DNA from: an uncultured Clostridia bacterium
GTDB lineage: Bacteria > Bacillota > Clostridia > Oscillospirales > Ruminococcaceae
NCBI GenBank assembly: GCA_947627205.1
Contig: CANQVE010000015.1
Location: forward strand, 1 to 42,569
DNA: 42,569 nucleotides
Reading direction: 5' to 3'
Below, in pieces: positions 35,877 to 42,569 of the stretch. The first letter of the stretch is position 1; each line of letters opens with the position of its first letter. A model generated the notes under the pieces. That model was given only the letters and a program-made list of their open reading frames with translations, had not been told where the DNA came from and did no database searches. Position numbers and translations under genes: made by a program.

Positions 35877-36698
35877 GTGGTAATTTACGCCGACGTTCTT
35901 GTTGCTTTAAACCTTTACATAAACTTTCTTTTGCTTTATGCGACGGCTTTGATTTTAAAGCGCGGTATTTCCCGGAAAAGGCTTGTCTTGGCGGCGCTTG
36001 CGGGAGCTTTCGGAGCGCTCGTTATTCTGCTTCCGACGCTGAATTTTTTTGTTTCGCTCGTTTACAAAATGCTCCTCGGGGCGGCAATGACGCTTATTGC
36101 CTTTGGGAAACAAAAGCCCGCGGACTTTGCGGTCTGCGCTTTGTTTTTTCTGCTGGTGAACTTTATTTTCGCGGGAGTTATAAACGCGCTCTGGGCGCTG
36201 TTTTCGCCGATAGGAATGATATACGAAAACGGCGTTTTCTATTTCGATATTCCTATCGCTGCAATTATAGCTTTTACCGCCTCGGCATTCTTTATAATAA
36301 AACTGATAAAGCTGATCATGGGCAGGCATTCCCATAAAAAGAAAATATGCGAAGTAAAAATAACCGCCGAAAACGGCAACGCAACACTTAGAGGGCTTTG
36401 TGATACAGGCTGCGGGGCGAAAGACCTGTTTTCGGGAACGCCCGTTATAATATGCGAATTTGAAAAGATAGCGGAAATTGTTCCGCAGAACATAAAGGAT
36501 CATTTTTCGGGAAAACCCGTGGAAAAAATACGTCTTATACCTTTGAGCACAGTCTCGGACGAAACGCTTCTGCCGATATTCAGAGCGAAAAGCGTCTTTA
36601 TAAACGGAAAAAACACCGACGCTCTTATCGGTGTTTCAAGGAAAAAACTCGGCGAGGATTTCGACTGCGTTTTCGATCCCGAGATAATTTCATTATAG
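35877..36698 (+). CDS. spoIIGA: Sigma-E processing peptidase SpoIIGA
   Basis: The 273-residue protein has five N-terminal hydrophobic helices (about residues 5-155), then an aspartic-protease-like domain with the catalytic C-D-T-G motif (about residue 184). It cleaves the pro-sequence of SigE in the mother cell. The start is GTG 35877 with GCGAGGTGA before it. The open frame reaches back to 35655, but that part is the upstream terminator region. A TATAAT at 35849-35854 has no good -35 at 17 bp, as expected for an activator-dependent (Spo0A-type) promoter, though this is inference. Confidence 0.9.
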
Positions 36699-36709
36699 GG
36701 GGAACTGTT

Positions 36710-37417
36710 ATGCTAAAGAAACTATTCAGGAAACTGCTCGGATTTTTCAATCGCAGGAAAAAGAACTATGTTCACTATATAAACAGCTCGGAGCAGCTTC
36801 CCCCGCCGCTTTCAAAAGAGGAAGAAGAAAAAGCTCTCGATATGCTTGACACGGATTTTGAAAAAGCGAGAGATACGCTCATTATCCACAATCTAAGGCT
36901 TGTCGTATACATAGCAAAAAAGTTTGAGAACACGGGAATATGGCTCGAGGACCTCACTTCTATCGGGACTGTGGGGCTTATAAAAGCCGTCAGCACATTC
37001 AGCAAGGACAAGAACATAAAGCTCGCTACTTATGCTTCGAGATGTATAGAAAACGAGATACTTATGTTTCTAAGAAAGTACAGTCAATACCGCTATGACG
37101 TTTCGATCGACGAGCCTTTAAACGTTGACTGGGACGGAAACGAACTGCTTTTGTCTGATGTTCTCGGAACGGAAAGCGACTGTGTCAATTCCCGAATAGA
37201 GGACGAAGTTGAAAAACAGCTTCTGCATGAAGCGGTGGATCATCTCGGAGCGCGGGAAAAGAAAATAATGGAAATGCGCTTCGGGCTGAACGGCTGTAAG
37301 GAAAAAACACAGAAAGAAGTTGCCGACGAGATAGGCATATCCCAGAGCTATATCTCAAGGCTTGAAAAGCGCATTATTAAACAGCTGAGAGAAGAACTTG
37401 AAAAAGTGTGCAACTAA
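36710..37417 (+). CDS. sigE: RNA polymerase sporulation sigma factor SigE (pro-form)
   Basis: The 235-residue sigma-70-family factor directs early mother-cell transcription in sporulation. The first ~25 residues form a basic, amphipathic pro-sequence removed by SpoIIGA. Region 2 follows ([12 protein letters not shown], then [14 protein letters not shown]) and then region 4 with a helix-turn-helix ([16 protein letters not shown]). It starts 11 bp after spoIIGA in the same operon. sigG, which usually comes next in Bacillus and Clostridia, is not here; the accessory island is found instead. Confidence 0.96.
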
Positions 37418-37483
37418 AAAGAAATAGCCGTTGTTTTTTATTTCAAAGCCGAAAAGCGTTTATTGTCCACTGATGTTATCAAA

Positions 37484-38098
37484 TTATCGGATAATCTGCT
37501 CTGCAGGAATAAACGGCAGAGTCGCCGTAAAAACCTCTTCTGTCAGAACAAAATCGGGCTTTACATCTGCATTTGAATAACACAGGTCTGTAATTTCGTG
37601 CGCTTTGGCAATATAACCCAGACGGGAAAAAATTTTCTGAAGCTCGCTGTCGGGCTTCGGGCAGGATACCGAAACGATAACTTTATCGGAGCAGACGCTG
37701 ACCGTAACGGGAGAGCTGTTTTCATAATTCTTATTTACAACGGCATTTGTTATCGTTTCTCTAAGCGCTTTTACCGGCACTGCCGGAACATACTCCCGCC
37801 GGATACCGTTCAGATACGACATTCCGGGGAGCATTCCTGCGACGTAATTTGTACATTGATCTGCCTGCATAACAACGGGACCCATAAACTCGTTTATTGA
37901 CCTCAGCGCCGAGCCGAAATCTCCCGAAAACGAAGCGGCTTTTATAATTACAGGACAATTGTCCGAAAACAAAACGCCAATATTACTATATCCGCCCTCG
38001 GAAGTTCTGAAAACTTCGGGGTCAAAATCCATGCCCCTGTCGGCGAATATTTTTTTGGACAAAGTATAGGTAAGATTGCCGTAATTCATGACAGACAT
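37484..38098 (-). CDS. AlbA_2/RecG-like regulator fragment (GHKL-type core without DNA-binding domain)
   Basis: The 204-residue protein matches the middle of the putative DNA-binding AlbA_2 (RecG-like) family: Y-S-N-I-G-V-L-F-S-D-N-C-P, then A-L-R-E-T-I-T-N-A-V-V-N-K-N-Y, then V-S-V-C-S-D-K-V-I-V-S-V. The second segment is the helix of the ATPase-like domain (usually R-E-A-x-x-N-A-x-x-H-R-D-Y). The N-terminal AlbA_2 domain and the C-terminal winged helix are both missing. A good ribosome site (GAGGTG) argues that it is an expressed short form. It is the last gene of the five-gene island. Confidence 0.7.
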   Translation of the reverse strand: MSVMNYGNLTYTLSKKIFADRGMDFDPEVFRTSEGGYSNIGVLFSDNCPVIIKAASFSGDFGSALRSINEFMGPVVMQADQCTNYVAGMLPGMSYLNGIRREYVPAVPVKALRETITNAVVNKNYENSSPVTVSVCSDKVIVSVSCPKPDSELQKIFSRLGYIAKAHEITDLCYSNADVKPDFVLTEEVFTATLPFIPAEQIIR

Positions 38099-38107
38099 AT
38101 ATACACC

Positions 38108-38572
38108 TCAACTGCCCGCAGACAGATAATTTATTGCGGCGAGCAGGTATTCTTTATAAGAATCAACAATGGTATCGGAATTTAATATCCTTATTTTAAA
38201 AGGCTCTTCAAATTTCATAATATACCCCAGGCGAATTCTTATATCCTTTTGCTCGGCAATTTTCAACAGCCAGGGAGCAGCTAAATTTCCCATGGCGTTT
38301 GCGTTGAATATCTTCTCCGGAAAATTGTTTATAAGAACAAGCGTTTTTACCGTACCCGAAAGATACGACGGCGGTATTGCGCCGAGTATGGGGCTTTGTA
38401 TTAAATTGCAACTGATAACTTCCGACTTATCAATTGCTTTTATCATTTCCCGCTCTAAGGCGCCGGTGATAAACTCTTCCCCGCCCTGATTGTCAAACCA
38501 TGGATCGGGCTGACTGATATATTCATCAAACGGCACATCATACGGGCTTTCACTAAACCATATATTTAACAT
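38108..38572 (-). CDS. DUF4869-family protein
   Basis: The 154-residue soluble protein starts M-L-N-I-W-F and contains I-D-K-S-E-V-I, S-P-I-L-G-A-I-P-P, L-S-G-T-V-K-T-L and W-L-L-K-I-A-E. These match DUF4869, a small family of unknown function found in gut Clostridia, as I recall it. It lies 9 bp before the AlbA_2-like gene and 12 bp after the mini P-loop gene, so co-translation is likely. GAGGAAG is the ribosome site. No catalytic residues are evident. Confidence 0.75.
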   Translation of the reverse strand: MLNIWFSESPYDVPFDEYISQPDPWFDNQGGEEFITGALEREMIKAIDKSEVISCNLIQSPILGAIPPSYLSGTVKTLVLINNFPEKIFNANAMGNLAAPWLLKIAEQKDIRIRLGYIMKFEEPFKIRILNSDTIVDSYKEYLLAAINYLSAGS

Positions 38573-38584
38573 TACAGCACTTCC

Positions 38585-39001
38585 TCACTTATCGCAAACA
38601 ACAAACTCCGATACGCCGTTTTCTGTTTTGACTGCGCATTTTTCCGTATCGCATGGTTTTAAGAACTTCGGCGTATCTCTTGTTATCATGACAAGATAAC
38701 ACCCCGTTTGCATAAACAAATCGGCAAATTCCTTTGTCAGAGCGAAGTGGTGATATTCATCGGTAAAGAATATCTGCCGTTTGTTTTTGCAGTATTCCAA
38801 AGCCGCGCGCCATGTAAATTCCGTCAGCGGTATAAGCTCACACGACGTACTTATCTCAACGCCCGCCCTGAAACTTAAAAGCCTGTACAATGTCGACTTT
38901 CCTGTAGCGCCGTCGTCCGCCAGAACAGTAACGGGTTTTCTCAATGTAAAGTCATAACAGCACCTATGGCTTTCTATATGAATATGAACGCTGCCCTGCA
39001 T
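38585..39001 (-). CDS. Mini P-loop NTPase of the accessory island
   Basis: The 138-residue protein has a Walker A-like D-D-G-A-T-G-K-S-T (residues 29-37) preceded by a short beta strand. A Walker B-like hydrophobic strand ends in D-E (I-F-F-T-D-E, residues 77-82), and a further strand L-V-M-I-T-R-D resembles a sensor. It looks like a minimal ABC/AAA-type nucleotide-binding fold without a signature motif. The start at 39001 follows AAGAGG and lies 10 bp after the previous stop; the longer frame to 39265 overlaps the upstream gene and is rejected. Function is unknown. Confidence 0.7.
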   Translation of the reverse strand: MQGSVHIHIESHRCCYDFTLRKPVTVLADDGATGKSTLYRLLSFRAGVEISTSCELIPLTEFTWRAALEYCKNKRQIFFTDEYHHFALTKEFADLFMQTGCYLVMITRDTPKFLKPCDTEKCAVKTENGVSEFVVCDK

Positions 39002-39011
39002 ACAAAACCTC

Positions 39012-39449
39012 TTATTCCAACGGTTCAGCCCAGCCGTCACTGAACAGCACTTTTTCTGTAAATTCGGGCAAAACTTCAAAAAGAAATTCATGTATTCCCC
39101 ACCAGAAAGCTCCGTGCATATTAAAATAAATTCCGTAGGTAAATCTGCCTGTCGCTTTGTCATAAGACGTGTTATATTTTCCTTGCCATTCATCTTTAAT
39201 ATTATCATGACTCCAGCGTATAAGCGGTATAAAATTCCTCGAAATATACTTGTCAATATTATCAAACTTATACTCGTACATCTCGTTCAAATCATTTTCA
39301 TTAACATTTTCCAGAACGATATCCAAAATATATTGTTTCAACAGCGGATTAGTTACCGCTAAATATCTTTCCTCAAAGAAATAACCGAAGTCCTCTCTGA
39401 ATTCGGGCTTTATAATTACTTCTCCGACATCTGCTACATAATAAGACAT
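39012..39449 (-). CDS. Hypothetical protein of the accessory island
   Basis: I do not recognise this 145-residue protein. It is acidic, soluble, and rich in aromatic residues (many Tyr, Phe and Trp), with no signal peptide or membrane segment. Notable stretches are E-D-F-G-Y-F-F-E-E-R-Y and F-N-M-H-G-A-F-W-W-G-I-H. TAGGAG six bases upstream supports the ATG at 39449 over the frame start at 39506. It sits 69 bp after the FtsH-like gene, behind an inverted repeat. Confidence 0.65.
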   Translation of the reverse strand: MSYYVADVGEVIIKPEFREDFGYFFEERYLAVTNPLLKQYILDIVLENVNENDLNEMYEYKFDNIDKYISRNFIPLIRWSHDNIKDEWQGKYNTSYDKATGRFTYGIYFNMHGAFWWGIHEFLFEVLPEFTEKVLFSDGWAEPLE

Positions 39450-39466
39450 TTTTACTCCTAATAAAT

Positions 39467-39501
39467 GTGTTACACCCGGCATTGTATGACGAGTGTAACA
39501 C
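39467..39501. promoter_or_regulatory. Inverted repeat between the FtsH-like gene and the next gene
   Basis: GTGTTACAC (39467-39475) and GTGTAACAC (39493-39501) are exact reverse complements, 17 bp apart. In minus-strand RNA they form a hairpin just before the ribosome site of the 145-residue protein gene. As DNA they could be an operator. TGTTACAC occurs again upstream of the island promoter at 42513-42520. Confidence 0.5.
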
Positions 39502-39518
39502 TGCATAACTATCTATGG

Positions 39519-42380
39519 TTATTTTTTATTGTCATATATCCAACGATAACTTTCATCATCTATCGAGCCAAGCTCCACTAATTTTTTTAGAGTTTCGGGA
39601 TAAAGTTCATGCTCCATTTTGCTGATGATCATCTCCTTTGTCTCTTTATATAGTTTCTGACACTCCTCTTCCGCCTTTGCGCAAACTTCGGGAGAATCTG
39701 CGCTTCGTACCGTCAGGGTATCGCCTAATCCGCCCTGAGCATAAGCGTTTCTTAAGAGGGCTGTTACATGGCTGATATCACCGCTGCAGCCGTTGGAAAC
39801 ATTGCCTTTGTAATAAATATCTTCCGCCGCTCTGCCTCCAAGAGATATGCGGACTTCCTTTTTAAGTTCATCAAGTGTAAGCGGTGCGCCCTCCTGACGG
39901 GTTGTTATCATTTTAGTATAACCGCCTACTCCGCTTTCACGAGCAACAATCGTACAATATCCTACCTTGCGTCCGCTTCGTACAGCGGCAATTGTATGCC
40001 CTAATTCGTGAACGGCAATTCTCTCCAGAGTTTCCTTATCTCTTGTGTCATTCTCTATCTTGCGCCCAAGTAATTCATCATAAATTCTGTCGTAAATCAG
40101 CGTTTTAGTTATCGTTTTATTTTCTTCACCGCGCAAATCATCAACTACATTTGTAACAACTTTCTGTATCCTGTCAAACGACATTCCTTCCATTTCGTCT
40201 GACAGTTCCTCTTTGGCATTATCATCAAAGCCCTCAGCCGTATATTCTTTCGGCAACGTTTTCAGGCAATGTTCGAGCATTGCGGCTCTGTCTTCGCGGT
40301 CAGGAAGTCTGATGTCAACTCTTGTTCCAAGCCTGCGTTTAAGCGCGGGATCAAGCATATCATAGCAGTTTGTGGCTGTTATAAGTATAAGCTTGTTCTT
40401 GCGGGTTGTAAAGCCGTCAAGCCTTGTCAGCAGCTTATTCAGCGCCTGGTTTCCGAGCGTGTCAATATTGCCCGCCTCTCTCGCTTTTCCTATGGCGTCT
40501 ATTTCGTCAATAAACAGCACGCACCGTTTATATCCGTCTACCCTGTCGAAAAGTTCTCCCAAAGCAACGGCGCCCTGTCCGCTGTAATTCTGGATATAGT
40601 CATTTCCCGCTTTTGAAATGAACTTTGCGTTTGCCATGCTTGCAACAACTCTTGCCATAAACGTTTTTCCGCAGCCCGGCTCGCCCGTCAGGCACACAGC
40701 GCGCATTCCCGTTTCGTCCGATTTCATCCACTCCAGGCACTTTTCGAGTTCCTTTATCGCCGTCTTGTTTCCAACGACGTCGTCAAACGTCAGTTTCTTG
40801 TCCGAACGATCCTTTTCTGCGACGACCTGTGAACTCAGTACCATACCGGTCTTTTCAAATTCGGCTTTTAGTTTTTCGCAGACTTTCTTTACTACGGGCG
40901 CTTTTATATACATAGAACCGGGATCTTCCCTACCATTTTCGCTGGTCAGGACTTCCGCCAGTCTTGCCGCAAAATATCCGTTTGCAAGTTCGCCTCCTAC
41001 GCTTACATTATACTCGTCCTGGTCTTCACTCTCCTTAGGGCAGTGCGCCGCCGTCAATATCAGATCTTTCAGGCTTTCGCGTATTTCTTCTTTTATTGAA
41101 TAATTATCTGCTTCAAGATAGCGGGAATAGAGATTGCTTAATATCCAGTTAAGTACCTCTATCTCATTGTCAACAGTATAGTTTTTAAATGCAAAGCGCT
41201 TTGATATCAAGCCTCTCAGAGTATCGCTCGAACTTAACAGCTCGTCGATCGAACCTGTACTTGCGCTAAGAATTATCAGGCATCTTTCCCGGCAATTTTT
41301 TGTAGCCGCTATAAAAGAATTTAATAAATCTGTGTTCAGATAACCTTCCGCGTGGTTTATAAAGATCACGCAGTCGCCGTAAGCAGGAATCAGTCCTCTT
41401 GTATCTATTTCAATGTAATGCGGTTGAGAACATTCCTCTTCCGTCACGGGATCTATAAAATCATGCTCTCTGAAAACGTTTGATTTACAACTGTCTGCAA
41501 TCCTTTTTGCCAGCGTAGACCGCCCGCAGCCCGCTAAACCCTCGAATGTAATTATATGCGGATATGACTTTGAAGAAGTTATCAGAAACTGATTTTCGAT
41601 ATAATCGTTTATTTCATTTAGGAAATCCTCATCAAAACCCTTAATGCCGTCAATACCTGCTTTCTTATTCTTATCTATATTTTCAATAAATGAAGCGGTA
41701 TCTACAAGCTCATCGGTTGTTCGTCTAGAAAGTATTGTATCAATTTCACTGCCATAACATATCCTTCGCGCGTCCTGATAAATATGCCTGTACACAGAAT
41801 ATTCATAGTCAAAAGCTTTCCCCACAGAAGCCGGATCTCTTTTGTAACTTTCAGAATTTTTTGGCGAGCTATTTTCTTTCAGACTACAATTTTTAACGAA
41901 CCCATAGTACGTATTATTGTCGATGTCATACGATTTTTCATTTTTTATACAATCAGTTATGATCTTAATAAAACTTTCTTCATATTTATCGGTCTTTAAA
42001 ACAAACAGAAGTGTACAACTCAGCTTAGCATAATTCTGTAAATTTATCAAATCACCTTTTTTGAAGAGATCGCCGATCCTATAACCATAATACATGTCAT
42101 TATGATAGGCACGCTTTGGCTCGGTCTTGGTACTTAATGTCAAATAGAAACGATAATACGTTTTTTGATCTTCGAAAAGCCCACTCATAGTCATAATTGT
42201 ACTTTTGTCAATATCAATGTCGGGAATATATTTATTAAACCACTTGAATATATTAACTATACTTTCTCTAAGTTTAACAAAGTACTCCGATTTACAGTTG
42301 ACAAAACCTTTACATGGAACATCCCCACTGAACCATTTTTTAATAAAAATACTTACGCCGTCTACTTGAACTACTTTCAT
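39519..42380 (-). CDS. FtsH-like AAA+ zinc metalloprotease with an extra N-terminal ATPase module, no visible TM helix
   Basis: The protein is 953 residues. Residues 1-~230 are not recognised. A first ATPase module (~245-500) has G-L-A-G-C-G-R-S-T, with Arg in place of the Walker A Lys. A full AAA+ domain follows, with Walker A G-E-P-G-C-G-K-T (~566), Walker B V-L-F-I-D-E-I-D and second region of homology A-T-N-C-Y-D-M-L-D-P-A-L-K-R-R. A peptidase M41 domain ends it: H-E-L-G-H (~789-793) and an acidic ligand in C-S-G-D-I. FtsH normally has two N-terminal membrane helices and ~640 residues; none are seen here. It probably unfolds and degrades proteins in the cytosol. The start at 42380 has GAGAGGTG before it. 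Confidence 0.85.
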   Translation of the reverse strand: MKVVQVDGVSIFIKKWFSGDVPCKGFVNCKSEYFVKLRESIVNIFKWFNKYIPDIDIDKSTIMTMSGLFEDQKTYYRFYLTLSTKTEPKRAYHNDMYYGYRIGDLFKKGDLINLQNYAKLSCTLLFVLKTDKYEESFIKIITDCIKNEKSYDIDNNTYYGFVKNCSLKENSSPKNSESYKRDPASVGKAFDYEYSVYRHIYQDARRICYGSEIDTILSRRTTDELVDTASFIENIDKNKKAGIDGIKGFDEDFLNEINDYIENQFLITSSKSYPHIITFEGLAGCGRSTLAKRIADSCKSNVFREHDFIDPVTEEECSQPHYIEIDTRGLIPAYGDCVIFINHAEGYLNTDLLNSFIAATKNCRERCLIILSASTGSIDELLSSSDTLRGLISKRFAFKNYTVDNEIEVLNWILSNLYSRYLEADNYSIKEEIRESLKDLILTAAHCPKESEDQDEYNVSVGGELANGYFAARLAEVLTSENGREDPGSMYIKAPVVKKVCEKLKAEFEKTGMVLSSQVVAEKDRSDKKLTFDDVVGNKTAIKELEKCLEWMKSDETGMRAVCLTGEPGCGKTFMARVVASMANAKFISKAGNDYIQNYSGQGAVALGELFDRVDGYKRCVLFIDEIDAIGKAREAGNIDTLGNQALNKLLTRLDGFTTRKNKLILITATNCYDMLDPALKRRLGTRVDIRLPDREDRAAMLEHCLKTLPKEYTAEGFDDNAKEELSDEMEGMSFDRIQKVVTNVVDDLRGEENKTITKTLIYDRIYDELLGRKIENDTRDKETLERIAVHELGHTIAAVRSGRKVGYCTIVARESGVGGYTKMITTRQEGAPLTLDELKKEVRISLGGRAAEDIYYKGNVSNGCSGDISHVTALLRNAYAQGGLGDTLTVRSADSPEVCAKAEEECQKLYKETKEMIISKMEHELYPETLKKLVELGSIDDESYRWIYDNKK

Positions 42381-42436
42381 CTTTAAACACCTCTCACAAT
42401 AATAAAATATCCGAAACAATTGTTTGTCTCCTTTAC

Positions 42437-42464
42437 ATTATACCAAAAATGGGGAAAAAGTCAA
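42437..42464 (-). promoter_or_regulatory. Promoter of the accessory island
   Basis: On the minus strand TTGACT (42459-42464), a 16-bp spacer and TATAAT (42437-42442) lie 57 bp upstream of the FtsH-like start. A second TTGACA lies further upstream, near 42503-42508. Confidence 0.65.
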
Positions 42465-42569
42465 CAAGTTTTAGTAATTTTACAATAAAATTTTGTACGT
42501 TTGTCAATGATATGTTACACTTTTCTCAAAAAAATATGATGCTAATAACTTTGAACGAAATCAGCCGCT

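Follow-up and report, generated by a model that had tools for sequence, protein, structure and literature searches.

The five genes at the end of the window (the whole 42,569-nucleotide stretch analyzed here, contig C15 of its genome) appear to be the edge of a shuffled mosaic island lying between sigE and sigG, in which the first gene, g1, is a protease module of its own and the other four, g2 to g5, have a separate history; we regard this reading as fairly probable. Two findings we count as solid at the level of sequence comparison: g1 encodes an orphan soluble variant of the FtsH-type proteases, and DUF4869 and P-loop proteins form an undescribed two-gene unit that is common in gut bacteria.

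Results

Organization of the locus

The first-pass annotation had described five same-strand genes behind one promoter. All five are open reading frames (ORFs) on the minus strand (Table 1) and the promoter is convincing, but g1 stands apart by 69 bp. The other four are indeed tightly packed, with gaps of 10 bp (g2-g3), 12 bp (g3-g4), and 9 bp (g4-g5). Since the g1-g2 gap holds a perfect 9-bp inverted repeat and has a weak promoter-like site near it (9 of 12 matches, 39535-39508), the set reads as one gene by itself followed by a closely packed group of four; as g1 and g2-g5 are co-directional and only 69 bp apart, co-transcription is possible. The ATG of g1 is preceded by a GAGAGG-type ribosome site, recognized by eye.

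Table 1. Features at the window end next to sigE
Feature	Position	Strand	Evidence
sigE, chromosomal edge of the island	36710-37417	plus	NCBIfam SigE, 362.9 bits
g5, 204-aa protein	37484-38098	minus	ORF
g4, 154-aa DUF4869 protein	38108-38572	minus	ORF
g3, 138-aa P-loop ATPase domain protein	38585-39001	minus	ORF
g2, 145-aa protein	39012-39449	minus	ORF
Perfect 9-bp inverted repeat in the g1-g2 gap	39467-39501	minus	Sequence
g1, 953-aa AAA+/M41 protein	39519-42380	minus	ORF from ATG at 42380
g1 residues 782-920, M41 peptidase domain	39621-40037	minus	HELGH at 791-795 and downstream GD aspartate kept
g1 residues 521-745, FtsH-type AAA domain (D2)	40146-40820	minus	Both Walker motifs and the arginine-finger region intact
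g1 residues 241-520, degenerate SpoVK/CbbX-like AAA domain (D1)	40821-41660	minus	Genome search and motifs
g1 residues 1-240, no family match	41661-42380	minus	Pfam, NCBIfam, PADLOC, PHROG
Predicted g1 promoter, TTGACT-16-TATAAT, TG before -10	42437-42464	minus	Promoter-site scan and repeat copies
Intergenic repeat with several copies, at the contig end and upstream of the g1 promoter	42494-42569	minus	Near-identical copies elsewhere

The g1 promoter ranked best among 18 promoter-like sites, with 11 of 12 matches and a TG before the -10 element; the number of such sites was not above that in shuffled sequences (18 versus a mean of 14.0, SD 3.5). The promoter is convincing because its distance to the repeat at the contig end recurs: in each of the eight repeat copies compared, 45-46 nt separate the repeat from the best promoter-like site, which matches at 12 of 12 positions in four copies, at 11 of 12 in three (the window included), and at 9 of 12 in one. 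We take this predicted promoter as real. The other copies are in two close relatives, G005 (three) and G007 (three), and on contig C23 of the same genome (one); 6 of these 7 are no more than about 50 bp from a contig end, so that an assembly break at the end of the window is expected. A near-consensus promoter-like site stands beside every copy of the ~76-bp repeat (window 42434-42569), mostly ahead of unrelated genes, and the repeat could be a mobile element that is strict in its choice of target, or else an upstream control element that these genes have in common. An Rfam scan of positions 36000-42569 gave no match at gathering scores, and a tRNA search of the window found none.

A probable island between sigE and sigG

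The operon adjoins sigE, and sigG of the same genome is found on another contig, at C22:21418-22194. We read the operon as an island edge because the two sigma factor genes, separated here, are neighbors elsewhere: of the 28 sigE loci from the same genus, 23 have sigG within 383 bp, in either orientation (29 same-genus loci were compared, one being the G033 match to g2; five further same-genus genomes matching sigE fall outside the count). In G005 and G007 it lies 120 and 168 bp downstream of sigE, and four more distant genomes have different genes after sigE, of housekeeping appearance. The orientation of sigG relative to sigE varies among close relatives at this site, being tandem or convergent (L118-L146, L149, L150).

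The ~21 kb before sigG on C22 carry 28 mechanically called ORFs, all on the minus strand. Those over Pfam cut-offs match AAA_14 (two), HipA_C (one), Fic (one), a nucleotidyltransferase, Panacea, and HATPase_c_4; just below the cut-offs are HipA_C (two), Fic (one), and zeta toxin, and one more kinase-like ORF was recognized by similarity only. On this reading g1 lies beside an island of toxin-type genes, and the accessory setting proposed for it held. The simplest reading would be one island split by the repeat between C15 and C22, a join that we infer from synteny. A 343-bp segment beside sigG (about C22:21013-21355) recurs within the island (L013:4003-4344) at 91.5% identity, and together with other internal repeats this indicates that the island grew partly by duplication. 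A phage or conjugative element was considered and set aside, no integrase or transposase being present in the 20 of 28 C22 ORFs scanned with Pfam; four more are DUF4869 genes, and the rejection is not final because two P-loop genes and two short ORFs lie outside the scan.

Two other genomes carry inserts that include g2 and lack g1. G002 has 3.27 kb between sigE and sigG, a span that encodes a g2 relative, an AAA_14 protein, and a Fic-like one scoring below cut-off. Beside sigG, G033 has a HipA-like kinase gene, an AAA_14 gene and another resembling it by eye, an 89-aa gene, g2 (93% identity), and an internally deleted g3; its DNA becomes homologous to the window (91%) at position 39503, immediately beyond the end of g1. 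Several observations count against the island reading: in G033, sigE is absent from the 14 kb fetched and the other flank is not sigE, none of g1-g5 bears the terminal peptide of the C22 proteins described below, and the GC contents of g3 (0.444) and g5 (0.452) are like that of the core window (0.459), unlike that of the C22 island (0.351).

DUF4869 and P-loop genes form a two-gene unit

g4 is a clear DUF4869 member (PF16163, 125.9 bits; cut-off 28.9), as annotated. g2, g3, and g5 reach no Pfam cut-off. The description of g3 as a P-loop protein needs qualifying: it has a P-loop domain but matches no family at its cut-off, and alignment identifies it as the N-terminal domain of a longer, ~320-aa family (alignment A2, 20-34% identity).

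A phmmer search returned 93 relatives of the P-loop protein in 92 loci, the window and duplicate loci included. When genome_contigs was scanned with an alignment of three full-length P-loop proteins, at least 590 stretches matched, 387 encoded relatives, and the best 80 of the 387 were examined. In 79 of these best 80 loci a DUF4869 gene adjoins the P-loop gene, upstream in 78 of the 79 pairs and downstream in one (L070), with a median gap of 8 bp and median lengths of 322 aa (P-loop) and 149 aa (DUF4869); at the exception, L063, the P-loop gene stands at the start of its contig. Other neighbors are mostly unshared, the largest downstream cluster, ABC-transporter-like, accounting for 20 of the 85 loci clustered. 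DUF4869 itself exceeds its cut-off in 2 of 295 genomes of the order and 6 of 391 of the class, our genome being among both, and in the reverse check five of six loci over cut-off in other genomes hold a P-loop gene, one of them weakly; L108 lacks it. The 80 listed loci (L024-L103, the best 80 of 387) come chiefly from Clostridia of the gut or rumen; Coriobacteriaceae, Selenomonadaceae, and Erysipelotrichaceae supply some and Flexilinea one record, and the P-loop gene also occurs in five "Bacteriophage sp." fecal records and in three from plasmids. Scanning viral_contigs for DUF4869, which reaches close relatives only, found no relative, and no paper turned up in a literature search for that name.

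g3 and g4 are likewise adjacent. The unit usually has DUF4869 first, followed by the ~320-aa P-loop gene, whereas in the window the P-loop gene is 138 aa in product length and comes first. On these comparisons, g3-g4 is a trimmed, reordered form of the undescribed pair. In 74 family members chosen by length, the C-terminal part carries invariant E167-D168, D212-G-A-A-x-G, and P239-E-S-x-E-W residues; g3 lacks this part of ~180 residues. By eye we suspected a TOPRIM domain there, and 13 of the 74 members match the PADLOC ATPase-Toprim model and 7 weakly match GajA; we do not claim this identity because no Toprim family appears among the Pfam or NCBIfam rows listed. PADLOC matches of the family were partial only, mostly to ATPase domains. 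Searched against the PDB, the P-loop family gave a single P-loop hit, at E 5.5e-6 over 41 positions, plus 13 further rows at E 0.02-0.4, and the DUF4869 alignment gave nothing.

The loss of the C-terminal part raises a tentative possibility, that g3-g4, perhaps with g5, are decaying, functionless remnants of the canonical pair. The truncation is measured against length-selected members, and it is joined by the internally deleted g3 of G033 and by short P-loop versions at L104 and L106. Against decay, both Walker motifs are, by eye, retained in g3, and a similar 150-aa P-loop gene lies between two DUF4869 genes on C22, so the short form recurs. Our genome has five DUF4869 copies, four of them on C22, where they adjoin P-loop genes of 150, 332, and 349 aa. 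The C22 order DUF4869, 150-aa P-loop, DUF4869, HATPase_c_4 protein resembles g3-g4-g5, with the weak g5 match described next.

g5 had been annotated as a trimmed AlbA_2-like protein. It gave no AlbA_2 hit and matched PHROG 12156 ("DNA helicase") instead, at E 5.4e-8; it also matched the PADLOC PNTD model (E 4.5e-4) and weakly resembles the HATPase_c_4 protein at L013:221-967 (BLASTP E 0.007 over 29 residues). It probably represents a C-terminal portion of an AlbA_2/RecG-C-like protein. For g2, searches of Pfam, NCBIfam, and PADLOC listed nothing at E 1 or below, its best PHROG match was at E 0.093, and tblastn against phages and plasmids found no match. It is present in 3 of 100 genomes: its own, G033, and G002 (58% identity).

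g1 encodes a predicted soluble FtsH-type protease

The AAA and M41 domains annotated in g1 were confirmed with Pfam. In a PDB search its best-scoring rows were p97-type AAA domains, and solved FtsH chains, among them entry 2ce7, FtsH of T. maritima, align to residues 523-925. Like FtsH, g1 places M41, with HEXGH and a downstream aspartate, after an FtsH-type AAA domain. Aligned to the ordinary FtsH of the genome, D2 has Walker A (GEPGCGKT), Walker B (LFIDEID), and the arginine-finger region, and M41 has HELGH and the aspartate as third ligand. g1 differs from FtsH in lacking a membrane segment, in 520 additional N-terminal residues, and in its NCBIfam FtsH_fam score, 198.8 bits versus an equivalog cut-off of 600. 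Its best 19-residue hydropathy is 1.06, against 3.25 in the ordinary FtsH, a separate 647-aa membrane protein encoded on contig C1. g1 is predicted to be soluble and is distinct from the housekeeping enzyme, as the first-pass annotation had it, and the idea that it is simply the ordinary FtsH of its clade among random neighbors is excluded.

The label "double ATPase" fared worse. D1 has the motifs GLAGCGRS and IFINHA, in which, on alignment, R replaces the Walker A lysine and N and H replace the Walker B D and E, leaving D2 as the only intact Walker A/B site. As D1 is degenerate, the label is probably wrong; degenerate motifs do not prove that ATP use has been lost. D1 also gives g1 a weak likeness to AAA+ proteins of the SpoVK/CbbX/EccA type, from which it differs by these lost residues and by its fusion to a protease. 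A published account describes SpoVK as a chaperone dedicated to the activation of MurG (PMC10659427).

Relatives of g1 are scarce. At E 1e-60 the full-length protein found itself alone in 100 genomes (none in the 99 others), and at E 1e-6 its N-terminal half found itself alone in 391 genomes of the class. In 396 genomes of the family, at E 1e-4, the N-terminal half found three: its own and two with SpoVK-like ORFs, in L112 and L113 (E 4.5e-5 and 7.4e-5), which match NCBIfam spore_V_K at 293 and 219 bits, below the cut-off of 423; these three genome sets overlap. Against the 14-kb subject that holds one of the two, tblastn with g1 gave E 1.8e-8 (that subject alone), and D2 matches the same place at 1.4e-6. 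Single-protein pattern scans of genome_contigs and viral_contigs, which reach close relatives only, found no relative. Searches with tblastn returned 60 phage and 1079 plasmid records, none covering 80% of the query, and among the matches listed (20 phage and 20 plasmid) alignments start at residue 418 or later. A literature search, with preprints and most subscription journals outside its reach, found no soluble FtsH of this make-up in the texts it covered. An extra FtsH besides the core one is known from Pseudomonas aeruginosa clone C, whose xenologous FtsH2 is horizontally acquired and reportedly degrades fewer substrates than core FtsH (PMC10850787). That FtsH2 is described as associated with the inner membrane, whereas g1 is soluble and has an unrelated N-terminus.

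The same genome encodes a second FtsH-type fusion, of 1153 aa (L014:9795-13256, on C23). Like g1, it has an N-terminal AAA+ domain, an FtsH-type AAA domain, and M41, with no membrane segment (hydropathy 1.11); it differs in that the N-terminal AAA is Clp-like (ClpA/ClpB-like), in an identity to g1 of 33% over the shared part, and in its neighbors. From its N-terminus it carries Clp-like AAA_2, then a middle part that looks receiver-like by eye, then FtsH-type AAA and M41, and the genes near it are presumably macrodomain- and sirtuin-like. This second soluble fusion would suggest that such moves off the membrane arose more than once.

The N-terminal half of g1 is richer in AT than the C-terminal half (GC 0.375 versus 0.459, the latter also the value for window positions 1-37417), which suggests that g1 may be a chimera of differing halves. 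Conceivably the chimera is recent, an FtsH-type C-terminal half joined to an AT-rich N-terminal half and drifting under no selected function. Its singleton status in the genome sets searched, the GC step, and the degenerate D1 are compatible with drift; with a 953-codon open frame behind a promoter and the catalytic motifs of D2 and M41 kept, we consider drift rather unlikely.

The five genes are not co-conserved

The first-pass annotation had proposed that the five genes make up one dedicated regulated-proteolysis module, a proposal that co-conservation in other genomes could check. The genes proved not to be co-conserved, which argues against a single module. DUF4869 and the P-loop gene form their own pair in 79 of the 80 loci, and no g1 relative was found in any of the 80 (flanks up to 9 kb, E 1e-3). 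g2 occurs without g1 in G002 and G033, both covered by the full-length g1 search and giving no g1 match, and on C22 a relative of g3-g4-g5 stands without g1 or g2. Together with the start of the G033 homology within the g1-g2 gap, the occurrence of g2 without g1 indicates that g1 and g2-g5 differ in history.

One dedicated system is, on this evidence, unlikely. A version in which the genes serve stress or defense, g1 as the effector protease and g2-g5 as sensor and adaptors, would fit the common strand, the tight g2-g5 spacing, the only strong promoter-like site lying ahead of g1, and the location beside toxin-type genes; set against the separate occurrence of g2, the homology break, the 80 loci without a g1 relative, and a 69-bp gap with an inverted repeat and its own weak promoter-like site, it seems to us quite improbable. 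PADLOC models run along g1-g5 identified no known anti-phage system: matches of g1 were confined to the ATPase portions of IetA, TRIP13, and others, those of g3 and g5 were weak, and g2 and g4 gave none.

A terminal peptide on C22 island proteins

The most surprising lead is a shared terminal peptide. T-x-[IVL]-F-[DNSTG], a pattern defined after the C22 island proteins had been seen, occurs in the last 14 residues of 7 of the 28 C22 island ORFs and in the first 14 residues of two more. Among 1060 ORFs of the 80 P-loop loci it was found at no C-terminus and at four N-termini, and among 35 window ORFs at neither end; g1-g5 lack it, as do the two G033 homologues compared. The nine toxin-type proteins that bear it are encoded in L013 (G000:C22:1-20000) and L163:325-843. 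Searched for as DNA, the exact T[DN]IF[NS]-stop form matched 20 times across 150 genomes, equal to the count for its reversed control, so that it is not enriched overall; in frame, only two matches, both from our genome (Fic and a 523-aa kinase), end convincing ORFs. These two ends share 46 bp of DNA and the other peptide ends differ at the DNA level, and a DNA repeat was rejected as the source since it would account for only 2 of the 7 C-terminal copies. That the HipA-like kinases, Fic, P-loop ATPases, and Panacea share a docking or degradation peptide, with g1 or the DUF4869/ATPase proteins as its reader, is very doubtful.

Discussion

We favor the mosaic reading, under which an island would have been inserted between sigE and sigG, both of them sporulation genes, and built by shuffling small modules. 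g3-g4 would be a cut-down copy of a two-gene ATPase/DUF4869 unit, and g1 a module of its own, a soluble, probably ring-forming, ATP-dependent zinc protease. Its orphan N-terminal part and the degenerate SpoVK-like AAA domain may choose substrates, D2 would unfold them, and M41 would cut; the most likely targets would be proteins of the island's own toxin/antitoxin-type modules. Ring assembly and substrate choice, like any link to stress or defense, we infer.

If g1 works as read here, FtsH-type proteolysis would have moved off the membrane and gained a new, non-catalytic AAA layer that chooses substrates. The DUF4869/P-loop pair is a compact two-gene unit, small enough for a direct test, and the peptide shared by the C22 proteins offers a cheap test for a common address label of a toxin-type island.
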